A stretch of DNA of 64,000 bases, from contig JALSNC010000126.1 of NCBI GenBank assembly GCA_026987195.1, positions 1 through 64,000 of the forward strand, given 5' to 3'. The stretch's first letter is position 1; every line of letters begins with the position of its first letter. The position numbers and the translations under genes are program-made. Positions 21,066 to 30,142 of this stretch are shown here, one piece after another. This DNA is from Desulfobulbaceae bacterium (GTDB lineage: Bacteria; Desulfobacterota; Desulfobulbia; Desulfobulbales; Desulfobulbaceae). The notes beneath the pieces are model-generated. The model had not been told where the DNA came from. It was given only the letters and a program-made list of their open reading frames with translations, and ran no database searches.

Positions 21066-21539
21066 ATGAAAAACCATGTACTGCGGCCGCTGTTTGCGGC
21101 CATGGCGCTCGTCGCCCTGATCCTGACGGCCCGGGCACTGATGGTGCCGTCGGATTTCGGGGTGCACGGCAAGAGCTTCACCTACAATTTCTACCGGGCC
21201 GGCGCTGTTTCGGACTGGAAGAACTTTCCGGTGAGCTACAAGGGCGGCGGTTCCTGTGTGGAATGCCATGACGAGAATGCCGAGAGTCTCGCCGCGTCCA
21301 GGCACCAGATCATCCAGTGTGAAAACTGTCATGGACCGGCCCGCAACCATCCCGAGGACCCTGAAACACTGACCATCAACAGGAGCAGGGATCTCTGCCT
21401 CCGCTGCCATGCCGATCTCCCCTACCCCGGCAGCCTGCGCAGTGAACTGCCGGCCATCGATCCCGGGGAACATAACCCGGGTGAGGCCTGTGTCGAGTGT
21501 CACAACCCACACAACCCGAACCTGGAGGATATGGAATGA
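21066..21539 (+). CDS. Tetraheme c-type cytochrome, membrane-anchored
   Basis: 157 residues with an N-terminal signal anchor (residues ~8-27) and four heme-binding motifs: C-V-E-C-H, C-E-N-C-H, C-L-R-C-H and C-V-E-C-H. It is periplasmic. It overlaps the next gene by ATGA, so it is translated with the ferredoxin subunit. By analogy to NrfB and the DsrJ/QrcA class of cytochromes, it would pass electrons between the ferredoxin subunit and periplasmic partners. No catalytic terminal reductase is encoded beside it. Confidence 0.9.
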   Translation: MKNHVLRPLFAAMALVALILTARALMVPSDFGVHGKSFTYNFYRAGAVSDWKNFPVSYKGGGSCVECHDENAESLAASRHQIIQCENCHGPARNHPEDPETLTINRSRDLCLRCHADLPYPGSLRSELPAIDPGEHNPGEACVECHNPHNPNLEDME

Positions 21540-22306
21540 AGTGTTCCCGGAGAAGTTTTCTGAAAAAGGGGCTCGGGAGCGCCATTGCAGCCTCCCTGCC
21601 GCTGAGCAGTTTCAAGTTCCTCTCACCGGCCGAGGCCAGGGCCGCGGTGGGTGACCCCGCTGTCCGCTGGGGATTTTTGATCAACACCTACAAGTGCACC
21701 GGCTGCGGCTTCTGCGTCAAGGCCTGTAAAAAGGAGAACAAGGTTCCCTATGACCTGCCGGTCACCAGGACCTGGGTGGAGCGGTATGTGGTCACCAGGG
21801 ACGGCGAGGCCCACATCGATTCACCTGCCGGCGGGCGTGACGGCTATACTGATCCGAAGATCGAGGGTAAAGAGATCGCTGCCGAGGAGATCACCAAGGC
21901 CTTTTTCGTTCCCAAACTGTGCAATCAGTGCCAGAACCCGGCCTGTGTCCAGGTCTGCCCGGTGGGTGCGACCTTCCAGACCGAGGACGGGGTTGTTCTC
22001 GTGGACCGGACCTGGTGCATCGGCTGCGGCTACTGCATCATGGCCTGTCCCTACGGCGTTCGTTTTTTTCACCCGGTCTACAAGGTGGCCGAGAAATGCA
22101 CCTTCTGCTACCACCGGATCACCAAGGGCATGAAGTCGGCCTGTGTCCAGGCCTGTCCCTTCGGGGCCCGGCAGATAGGCGATCTGAAGGATCCGGATGA
22201 TCCGGTGACCAGGGCGATCCTGACCCAGAGGGTCGCGGTCCTCAAAGATGAATATGGTACCAAACCACAGGTTTTCTATATCGGCCTGGACGAGAACGTG
22301 AGGTGA
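21536..22306 (+). CDS. Tat-exported 4x[4Fe-4S] ferredoxin subunit (NrfC/DsrO-like)
   Basis: 256 residues from ATG 21536, overlapping the cytochrome stop. The N terminus is a Tat signal (C-S-R-R-S-F-L-K-K, then a hydrophobic stretch to A-E-A-R-A). Four cysteine clusters are visible: C-T-G-C-G-F-C-V-K-A-C, C-N-Q-C-x4-C-V-Q-V-C-P, C-I-G-C-G-Y-C-I-M-A-C-P, and C-T-F-C paired with C-V-Q-A-C-P-F-G. This is the periplasmic electron-wire subunit seen with NrfD/PsrC membrane partners. It is followed 3 bp later by the NrfD gene. Confidence 0.93.
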   Translation: MKCSRRSFLKKGLGSAIAASLPLSSFKFLSPAEARAAVGDPAVRWGFLINTYKCTGCGFCVKACKKENKVPYDLPVTRTWVERYVVTRDGEAHIDSPAGGRDGYTDPKIEGKEIAAEEITKAFFVPKLCNQCQNPACVQVCPVGATFQTEDGVVLVDRTWCIGCGYCIMACPYGVRFFHPVYKVAEKCTFCYHRITKGMKSACVQACPFGARQIGDLKDPDDPVTRAILTQRVAVLKDEYGTKPQVFYIGLDENVR

Positions 22307-22309
22307 GAA

Positions 22310-23578
22310 ATGCTGGATCAGTTAGCGACAAACGGACATCTGATTGCACACGGAATGGACTGGACCATCAAGGAAGGGTTCGTCTATCCCAATGAATTCA
22401 TCTACTGGAGCATCCAGATCGTGCTCTATCCCTACATGACCGGTCTGGTGGCGGGCGCCTTTGTCCTCTCCTCCCTGTACCACGTGTTCGGTCAGCAGGA
22501 CCTCAAGGACATGGCCCGGTTCTCCCTGGTCTTTTCCCTGGCCCTCCTGCCGGTGGCCATGATGCCGCTGCTCATGCACCTGCAGCAGCCGCTGCGCGGC
22601 ATCGAGGTACTCTTCACGCCGCATTTCACCTCGGCCATCTCGGCCTTTGGTATCATCTTTACCACCTACTCCATCATTGTCCTCAGCGAAATCTGGTTTG
22701 TCTACCGCACCTATTTCGTGGAACAGGCCAGGGCATTGAAGGGCAAGAGCGGGGTTGCCAACACCTTCATGAGGGGGCTGTACACCGTACTCTCCCTCGG
22801 AGCGTGGGACCTGGGCGAGGCCGCCGTCGCCAAGGATAAAAAAGCCATCAAGATACTGGCGGGTATCGGCATTCCGGTTGCCTGCTTCCTCCACGGGTAT
22901 GCCGGATTTATCTTTGGCTCGGTCAAGGCCAACGCCCTCTGGATGTCACCGCTGATGCCGGTGATCTTCATCATGTCGGCCGTTGTCTCGGGTATTGCCC
23001 TCTGTATGCTGACCTATATCGTCATCATGGAGTGGAAGAAGTTCACCACCACGCTCGCCAAGGGGCGTGGCGACGACTCGGTCAAGCTGATCAAGGGTGC
23101 GGAGATCGATGTCATCAGCAAGACATCGCGCTACCTGATCGGTTTTCTCATCGCCGCCATCACCCTGGAGCTGCTGGACCTGATCTTCCGGGGCTATACG
23201 GCTATGAAGTCATGGGACATCCTGCGCTCGGTCATGTACGGCAAAGATTTTATCAATATCTTTGTCCTGCAGTACGGCTTCGGCAACCTCATTCCCTTCA
23301 TTCTGCTGATCCTGCCAAGGCTCACCATCAGGCGGACAGCACTCGCCCTGGTCCTGGTCCTGTTCGGCGTCTTCATGATGCGCTGGAACGTGGTCATCGG
23401 CGGCCAGGCATTCTCCCTCTCATTTGCCGGCTACATGCACTACGTGATGCCGATCATTCCGCATAACATCGAGACCTTCAAGGAGGGACTGGGCGGCGCG
23501 CTCCTGGTCGGCATAACGCCGTTTGTCCTCTTCTGGCTCATCAACAAGGTGACGCCTTCACTGCGCTTCAACAACTGA
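22310..23578 (+). CDS. NrfD/PsrC-family quinone-reactive membrane subunit
   Basis: 422 residues, mostly transmembrane (about ten helices), with the NrfD-family pattern including an N-terminal Y-P-x-E-F-I-Y-W-x-I-Q segment and H-G-Y-A-G-F-I-F-G mid-protein. It oxidises or reduces menaquinone and exchanges electrons with the ferredoxin subunit. The three-gene set resembles NrfBCD or the JOP part of DsrMKJOP, but with no catalytic molybdopterin or NrfA partner. The operon ends at a strong terminator 30 bp downstream. Its exact electron acceptor or donor cannot be read from the sequence. Confidence 0.92.
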   Translation: MLDQLATNGHLIAHGMDWTIKEGFVYPNEFIYWSIQIVLYPYMTGLVAGAFVLSSLYHVFGQQDLKDMARFSLVFSLALLPVAMMPLLMHLQQPLRGIEVLFTPHFTSAISAFGIIFTTYSIIVLSEIWFVYRTYFVEQARALKGKSGVANTFMRGLYTVLSLGAWDLGEAAVAKDKKAIKILAGIGIPVACFLHGYAGFIFGSVKANALWMSPLMPVIFIMSAVVSGIALCMLTYIVIMEWKKFTTTLAKGRGDDSVKLIKGAEIDVISKTSRYLIGFLIAAITLELLDLIFRGYTAMKSWDILRSVMYGKDFINIFVLQYGFGNLIPFILLILPRLTIRRTALALVLVLFGVFMMRWNVVIGGQAFSLSFAGYMHYVMPIIPHNIETFKEGLGGALLVGITPFVLFWLINKVTPSLRFNN

Positions 23579-23646: not shown

Positions 23647-23758
23647 CTCTTGCCTGCCTTTTGGCGATGCTCTCTGTTAACAACCCATTGTGATGGGGAA
23701 TACTGTGGACTGGCGGTCCGGCACCGTTGTCCGGACCGTCAGCCCATGTACCGTAACC

Positions 23759-23970
23759 CTCACGGGACGGCTAACCATCGGCTTGTCCGGCCACAATGGG
23801 GTAAGCGCTCTCAGGGGCCGCAGATTCGGAGTCTACGCTTACCTGTGCAGGCATGCCTGGCCACAGGTAAGCGACCGCAGGGAGACACCGATAGCCTGCC
23901 CATGCGGGCAGGCAACGACCGTGCAGTGAGGCAAGCGAAGACTCCGTGCGGCTCCTGTGAGCGCTTACCA
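23759..23970 (+). repeat. R3 repeat, full copy
   Basis: A repeated leader (CTCACGGGACGG onward) precedes a 168-bp core with 22-bp inverted ends (23801-23822 against 23947-23968, 20 of 22 matching; outermost GTAAGCGCTC/GAGCGCTTAC). Related copies are at 29931-30142 and 54206-54352, with fragments at 18252 and 53448. With the R4 copy, it fills most of the 665-bp gap 23579-24243. Confidence 0.75.
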
Positions 23971-24243: not shown

Positions 24244-25350
24244 ATGACGAGGATGATACTGCGGAGCCTGACCCCATGGGTGGCCGCCGCTTTCCTTTTC
24301 GGAGGATGTACAGGCATGCGGCCGGACCAGGCCGTGGTGGGAGGAAAGCAGCCGCCGACCCTTTCGACCGGACCGCTGCCGGTCAGCCTGCCGGCCGGAG
24401 TGGAGATGATCTCTGTGGAAGAGGTGCAAAAACTGGTCAGCGCCGGTGACGACCTCATGCTGGTCGACACCCGGCCAGGGTCGCGCTACAGACGCTCCCA
24501 CCTGCCAGGTGCCATTTCCCTGCCGGCAGCCGGGGCGGCAGAGAACATCGACAGGCTGCCGACGGACAGGGATCGTCTGCTCATCTTTTACGGTGAGGGA
24601 CCCACATGAGGGAGGAGTTCCGTGATCGCCGGTCTGGCGAGAAAATCCGGGTACCGGGAAGTACGGGTCATGGTCGCCGGAGAGCCCGGCTGGGTCAGGG
24701 CCGGCTACGCCACCTATGCCAGCCGTGACGTTGTCCGGGACCACGGACCGTTGCTCATCGACCTGCGCGACAGAGCCGCGGACAGGACAGGCAGGATTCC
24801 CGGGTCTGTTTCCGTTCCTCTTGCCTTTCTTGAAACCGCAGCAGCGGAAATCCCGGCAAGGGCGCCGGTGGTGCTCTATGGCACCGACGACGACCAGGCC
24901 CGGCAGGGATTGAAGATCCTGCGCAGCAAGGGGCTCGGCAGGGTATCGCTGCTGGAGGGCAACCTGGCTGGCTGGCTGGGAGCCGGCGGCATCCTGGTGA
25001 AGGGACCGGTGCGCACCACCATCACCTGGCAGAAAAAACCTGCAGCCGGCGAGGTCTCCCTGGCCGACTTCAGGAACGTGATGGCGGGCAGGAGCGACGC
25101 TTTGCTGCTGGATGTACGCACCAACGAGGAGACAGCGGCCGGTCTCCTGCCAGGGGCACGGCATATACCCCTGGAACACCTGCTGGCACGGATGGACGAG
25201 TTACCCCGCAATAAAAAAATATTCATCTATTGCGCCAGTGGCCCCCGGGCCGAGATGGCCAGCCGGTTACTGGCAGGCAAGGGCTTTGCGTGCCGCTACC
25301 TTGACGCCAGCGTCCGCTGCGCCGGAGGCAGGTGCGAGGTGAAAGAGTAA
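24244..25350 (+). CDS. Triple-rhodanese lipoprotein with selenocysteine (UGA recoded)
   Basis: A 368-residue product if TGA 24607-24609 is read as Sec122; the frame is open on both sides and the rhodanese fold is continuous across it. It has a lipoprotein-type signal (hydrophobic helix, then L-F-G-G-C22). Domain 1 (~55-150) has D-T-R-P-G-S-R-Y, then the active loop F-Y-G-E-G-P-T-U-G-R-S and the family ending G-E-P-G-W. Related proteins have F-Y-C-G-G-x-x-C, so Sec replaces the second loop Cys and the first is Gly. Domain 2 (~155-255) has a Cys-less loop (Y-G-T-D-D-D) and looks inactive. Domain 3 (~270-368) has a canonical C330-A-S-G-P-R loop. Likely role: periplasmic sulfane-sulfur or selenium transfer. 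SD elements AGGAGG and GAAGAAGG precede ATG 24244. Confidence 0.88.
24626..24640 (+). promoter_or_regulatory. Bacterial SECIS-like hairpin for UGA 24607-24609
   Basis: The stem TCGCC (24626-24630) / GGCGA (24636-24640) closes a GGTCT loop, identical to the E. coli fdhF SECIS loop, and begins 16 nt after the UGA. The match to the loop consensus and the position support SelB-dependent decoding. The 5-bp stem is shorter than in the peroxiredoxin gene. Confidence 0.78.
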
Positions 25351-29885: not shown

Positions 29886-29930
29886 GTTGTGAATGTGACT
29901 GGGGCCGAAAACAGCCTCCTGGTGTACAAC

Positions 29931-30142
29931 CTCACGGGATGGCTCACCATCGGTCTGTCCGACCACAATGGTGTAAGCGCTCTCGGGGTCGCAGATTCGG
30001 AGTCTGCGCTTACCTGTGCAGGCGTGTCTGACCGCAGGTAAGCGACCGCAGGGAGACTCCGACAGCCGCCTACCCATGCGGGCAGGCACGACCGTGCAAA
30101 GAGGTAAGCGAAGGCTCCGTGCGGCTCCTGCAGGGCTTACCT
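29931..30142 (+). repeat. R3 repeat, second full copy
   Basis: Has the CTCACGGGATGGCTCACCAT leader, a left end GTAAGCGCTCTCGGGGTCGC and a right end TGCGGCTCCTGCAGGGCTTA. Similar along its length to 23759-23970. With R4 copy 3 it fills the 503-bp gap between greA and the TPR gene (29662-30164). Confidence 0.75.

Follow-up and report, generated by a model that had tools for sequence, protein, structure and literature searches.

A predicted selenocysteine without its partner cysteine in an exported triple-rhodanese protein of the Desulfobulbales

Five rhodanese selenoprotein forms are tabulated in PMC13188914. Periplasmic rhodaneses also figure in models of sulfur disproportionation and of sulfide oxidation by cable bacteria, in which the sulfur relay is poorly understood. 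Such proteins are described as expressed in cable bacteria and their relatives (PMC13047784), and in Desulfolithobacter dissulfuricans thiosulfate disproportionation was the only condition in which the rhodanese GF1_13980 was detected (PMC9751629). The gene described below encodes a three-domain rhodanese in which a UGA codon occupies the first active loop. It lies in the window, by which we mean the whole 64,000-nucleotide stretch of DNA analysed.

The open reading frame starts with ATG at 24244, ends with TAA at 25348–25350 and, apart from a single in-frame TGA at 24607–24609, is free of stops. Its features are as follows.

24244–25350, + strand: predicted selenoprotein gene for an exported triple-rhodanese protein of 368 residues (TGA read through, UGA = Sec122; three PF00581 stretches)
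24244–24309, + strand: probable lipoprotein signal peptide, recognised in the sequence, ending in LFGGC with lipobox Cys22
24412–24699, + strand: rhodanese domain 1, loop FY-G117-EGPT-U122-GRS
24592–24594, + strand: codon GGT of Gly117, which replaces the Cys at the family's catalytic position (the homologue L023 is the sole other copy with Gly; all further relatives with the loop have Cys)
24607–24609, + strand: UGA codon of the predicted Sec122, at +5 in the loop (the 60 fetched UGA members share this column, and members without UGA have Cys in it)
24626–24640, + strand: bSECIS apical hairpin UCGCC-GGUCU-GGCGA, 16 nt past the UGA (4-bp stem in 60/60 UGA members, frozen codons, covariation)
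24739–24978, + strand: rhodanese domain 2, loop GTDDD without Cys (position 0 is Ser, Gly or Ala in 23/23 aligned members)
25087–25308, + strand: rhodanese domain 3, loop C330-ASGPR (family consensus CTTGAR)
25318–25335, + strand: C-terminal C-x4-C (Cys359, Cys364), located on a predicted beta hairpin; most relatives conserve the motif

The three PF00581 stretches of the window protein have a total Pfam score of 123 bits (gathering threshold 22.2). An AlphaFold model that drew on 22 relatives (mean pLDDT 85.8, confident past about residue 50) places residue 122 in the rhodanese active loop, between a strand (residues 112–116) and a helix (residues 124–134). Loop positions are numbered from the end of the strand, with the Cys as 0 and Sec as +5; domain 3, with its C-x-x-G-x-R loop, has Arg at +5. 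Judged by alignment and model, the predicted Sec sits where the canonical loop has its Arg, near the position of the catalytic Cys. Position 0 itself holds Gly in the first two domains and Cys330 in the third, and domain 2 is probably catalytically silent. All of this agrees with an earlier note on this DNA, which had located the UGA inside the active loop of domain 1 with the frame running on through three domains, had assigned Sec to the second Cys position of an F-Y-C-G-G-x-x-C loop whose first Cys is Gly, a placement that the alignment of relatives supports, and had described one Sec domain, one Cys-less domain and one Cys domain. The protein is exported and probably held by a lipid anchor; the N-termini of its relatives carry clear lipoboxes (LVTGC, LTWGC) or, in some cases, a type I signal.

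The UGA at 24607–24609 almost certainly encodes selenocysteine, in view of the Sec machinery in the genome, the restriction of UGA to one column, its replacement by Cys and the conservation of the SECIS. The host genome (G000, 3.8 Mb in 316 contigs) contains selB above the curated cut-off, tRNA-Sec (73 bits), selA (642 bits) and two selD genes, each of which itself has a TGA. On the comparative evidence, SelB and tRNA-Sec decode the UGA as Sec under the direction of the hairpin immediately downstream. Matches to the family occur in 216 of the 258 genomes of the order (Desulfobulbales). The homologue counts are based on 150 listed places within the order, 115 of which contain a single TGA as their only stop, while 35 have no TGA. 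The UGA column is identical in all 60 UGA members that were fetched; 25 members without UGA have Cys at this column, as do two others in which the surrounding sequence differs slightly. In the tree, the Cys forms are scattered at many separate places among the Sec forms, and the two states interchange several times. The exported three-domain Sec form, of which the note named no described example, is by these counts widespread (115 of the 150 listed homologues with a single UGA); the Cys-to-Gly change, in contrast, is rare, being confined to the window genome and one sister. The computational tests that had been proposed turned out in favour of Sec: in the relatives the column of the UGA holds either Cys or UGA, and selA, selB, selC and selD are all in the genome, so the feared lack of selB or selC did not occur. 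Nor did the two other outcomes that would have spoken against it, a sequencing error and homologues ending at this point, since the same-column UGA recurs in relatives of many species and their sequence continues.

A hairpin with a GGTCT loop had likewise been reported 16 nt after the UGA, and both its position and its sequence are as claimed. The element is conserved through wobble codons and covariation. Its 4-bp inner stem pairs in 60/60 UGA homologues compared to 6/25 Cys homologues, and the loop is GGUCU in 35/60 and GGUCA in 21/60 of the UGA members. The codons that make up the SECIS are frozen in UGA members (GCC in 59/60, GGT in 58/60, GCG in 59/60) and free in Cys members. In a set of 44 sequences drawn also from other families of the phylum, standard pairs make up 93.6% of the pair cells; compensatory changes on both sides are found in 14 cells, compared to a mean of 2.6 in shuffles (0 of 500 as high), and standard pairing falls to 22–51% in all slid registers. 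The 61-nt RNA following the UGA does not have a better folding energy than its shuffles (z = 0.61), so the case for the hairpin is made by conservation and not by energy. Rfam has no family for this SECIS.

The window protein belongs to a large family with the loop C-x4-U in Desulfobulbales and other Desulfobacterota. A contig scan with the window protein returned only distant rhodaneses of Bacteroidota and Balneolales, and an order-wide search was used instead. Full-length relatives are about 440 residues long and consist of a signal peptide, an N-terminal domain of about 70 residues, which matches no Pfam family above the cut-off, and three rhodanese domains. The family's domain-1 loop is FYC-GGPT-U-GMS (C0-x4-U(+5)), its domain-3 loop is CTTGAR, and most members have the C-terminal C-x4-C. 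In a phylum-wide sample, the C-x4-U loop was found far outside the order in exported proteins with three domains, two domains or a single domain. The N-terminal domain of the distant homologues L152, L153, L154, L158, L164 and L166 contains one CXXCH haem motif, which is absent in the Desulfobulbales members read. Two paralogues, L168 and L169, have shortened loops (YYCVGGC and FYDIGGC, respectively), L169 being without the position-0 Cys and keeping the second Cys. In L178 and L173, rhodaneses stand in tandem and carry either a single Sec loop or two (FYCGGLAU; FYCGGPTU and FYCGGYTU).

The window copy departs from this pattern. Gly at loop position 0 is found only here and in L023, the copy of the sister genome G024; the Cys is still present in G023, the third species of the genus. 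Departures from columns that are conserved outside the genus include C117G, G118E, M124R, T332S and A334P, and the window copy is without the N-terminal domain of about 70 residues. L023 shares the loss of the loop-1 Cys, T332S and A334P and has additionally lost the Cys of domain 3 (C330S). The two copies are 57–60% identical (57% when shared codons are compared), in contrast to 90–98% identity between the same genomes for five of the seven neighbouring genes. Their dN/dS is about 0.4 (about 0.28–0.44), compared to 0.03–0.35 for the neighbours, which indicates purifying selection on the window copy relative to L023. Given this fast evolution and the loss of conserved residues in both active loops, the chemistry of the window protein may differ from that of the family. 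The active site is either remodelled around Sec alone or decaying, and the evidence favours remodelling because the UGA and the SECIS are retained in both Gly copies.

The gene is preceded by tetraheme/DsrO/NrfD-like genes and followed by Hpt, Sua5-like and PurD/E-like genes. The upstream group (window positions 21066–23578) encodes a tetraheme cytochrome, a DsrO-like Fe-S protein and an NrfD/DsrP-like membrane protein, is 92–97% identical in the two sister species and resembles the dsrOhPh-tetrahaem locus of cable bacteria, the function of which is unknown (PMC13047784). An operon of these genes with the rhodanese was considered and rejected because a 665-nt gap with a high-copy repeat separates them and the adjacency occurs only in the genus. 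The downstream genes were also rejected as functional partners: they are on the opposite strand and housekeeping-like, though they are placed alike in ~16–20 relatives. The interspersed repeat of ~215 nt is found at 23740–23970 and 29930–30141 of the window, with one copy just upstream of the rhodanese gene. Its copies are ~84–94% identical and ~70% self-complementary, it occurs at no fewer than 40 places in the genome (40 of 329 candidates scored), and it has no Rfam family.

The handling of sulfane sulfur outside the cytoplasm, by periplasmic transfer or reduction, is a reasonably likely role for the protein. It is favoured because of Phs/Psr-type neighbours in relatives, the detection of GF1_13980 and the periplasmic rhodaneses of PMC13047784. 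In L164, L165, L166 and L170, which are Cys forms from two families, the homologue adjoins genes for a molybdopterin oxidoreductase, an Fe-S protein and an NrfD subunit. The best NCBIfam match of the molybdopterin oxidoreductase is thiosulfate reductase PhsA (502–552 bits in the three that were scanned), which, being below the cut-off of 694, is a resemblance only. Upstream of the Sec form L057 (Desulfobulbales) are genes for a PhsA/PsrA-type molybdoenzyme and an Fe-S protein. This adjacency is a property of distant relatives (mostly Cys forms) and of one Desulfobulbales genome, and not of the window. By locus-tag spacing, calibrated on HynAB (GF1_18090–18100 at 2.011 Mb), GF1_13980 interpolates to ~1.553 Mb. 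The Sec rhodanese of D. dissulfuricans GF1 (G070) is at 1.5597–1.561 Mb, the closest other rhodaneses being at 1.646 and 1.308 Mb, and by this interpolation the orthologue is probably GF1_13980.

In the family at large, Cys0 would take up sulfur as a persulfide, which Sec would resolve via a selenenylsulfide; sulfide would then be released, or else domain 3 or a respiratory reductase of the Phs/Psr type would receive the sulfur. Since the window lineage has lost Cys0, Sec122 itself might be the nucleophile there and form a perselenide, to be resolved by Cys330 or by an external thiol. The specific version in which Sec +5 is the sole chalcogen nucleophile of the loop and hands its sulfur, as perselenide, to the domain-3 Cys of the same chain is tentative, and we consider it possible rather than likely.

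If the UGA were a real stop or arose from a sequencing error, and the remainder were a pseudogene or a separate gene, this would be in keeping with the post-UGA stretch folding no better than shuffles. Such an explanation is barely credible against the same-column UGA in relatives from many species, the covariation of the SECIS, the Cys replacements and the complete Sec machinery, and a pseudogene is ruled out by the dN/dS of ~0.28–0.44. Degeneration is a more serious contender, although we still judge it unlikely: the protein would be a real selenoprotein whose first and third active sites are decaying, with Sec122 a relic of the former C-x4-U pair and binding as the main function of the protein. 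The five substitutions listed above, the missing N-terminal domain, the C330S change in L023 and a dN/dS higher than that of the neighbours are all as expected from decay. Against it, the UGA and a perfect SECIS have been kept across a sister pair of ~60% identity that shares the Gly state, and the frame of 1.1 kb is intact with dN/dS below 1.

Two further explanations leave Sec in place and change the substrate. The Sec domain could use its rhodanese scaffold for the reduction or oxidation of thiol-disulfides or peroxides instead of sulfur transfer, as the likeness of the C-x4-U pair to redox motifs suggests; the related TsoB, a rhodanese/DsbD-like fusion, has a U-x4-U loop (PMC13188914), though the similarity is weak. 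The Phs/Psr gene neighbourhood, the sulfur-disproportionating context of the hosts (PMC9751629) and the absence of the redox partner Cys from the window protein make this function improbable, slightly more so than degeneration. A role in carrying selenium as a perselenide, either to the synthesis of selenoproteins or to the reduction of selenite, finds precedents in bovine rhodanese, which can form a perselenide (Ogasawara 2001, as cited in PMC5877670), and in the ext cluster of Geobacter, which pairs a rhodanese lipoprotein with selenite reduction (PMC5877670). It is nevertheless very improbable, as the protein is exported while SelD is cytoplasmic, no selenium genes are adjacent and the neighbourhoods of the relatives point to sulfur.

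If this widespread exported triple rhodanese is a selenoprotein, annotations that stop at the UGA split or shorten its gene, and the supply of selenium becomes a factor in the sulfur metabolism of the hosts. The natural variants Cys-x4-Sec, Cys-x4-Cys and Gly-x4-Sec provide a ready experiment on what selenium contributes to sulfane-sulfur chemistry.

Among known structures, the multi-domain rhodaneses 1yt8 from Pseudomonas aeruginosa and YnjE (2wlr, 3ipo), both thiosulfate sulfurtransferases, are among the best structural matches in the Protein Data Bank, and 1yt8 is also the best match in sequence. However, 1yt8 and YnjE have no Sec and their domain arrangement differs (TM-score of 0.2–0.3 over the whole chain). 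ExtH of Geobacter sulfurreducens (PMC6148476, PMC5877670), compared here by description, is an exported rhodanese lipoprotein of 49 kDa, similar in size to full-length family members, but its gene belongs to a porin/cytochrome cluster, the reported selenoprotein of which is ExtKL and not ExtH; this context (extI porin, extKL cytochrome) was not found beside the window gene. The window protein and three relatives stayed below the cut-off of every NCBIfam model. NF041203 (form 3, CxU, the LYCAU rhodanese) ranks among the highest-scoring models for domain 1 in relatives (L025 reaches 97 bits), but describes a single domain with C-x-U, whereas the window protein has the loop G-x4-U and scores 46 bits, below the cut-off of 115. 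TsoB (form 5, NF045694) is similar in that its loop chalcogens are five positions apart; unlike the window protein, which has one Sec, no DsbD and 48 bits against a cut-off of 805, it has two Sec and a DsbD-like region. Form 2 (UxxG) also carries Sec in the rhodanese active loop, but at position 0 instead of +5 and in a different architecture. The host genome encodes a second Sec rhodanese, L187 (G000:C254:5200-7476), with the form 2 motif, Sec at position 0 (FYURSGKRSRA) and then a rubrerythrin-like region, so two positions of the rhodanese loop appear to be used for Sec in one cell. Form 1 (UxxS, WP_010941598.1, Table 1 of PMC13188914), compared by motif only, shares PF00581 and U-x-x-S with the window protein (U122-G-R-S) and its family (U-G-M-S). 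Its motif also fits the single-domain exported proteins L172, L174 and L177 (loop C-x4-U-x-P-S), from which the window protein differs in having three domains and in the absence of the first Cys. On the evidence above, the window protein is a real selenoprotein and belongs to an already known kind, the rhodanese selenoproteins.
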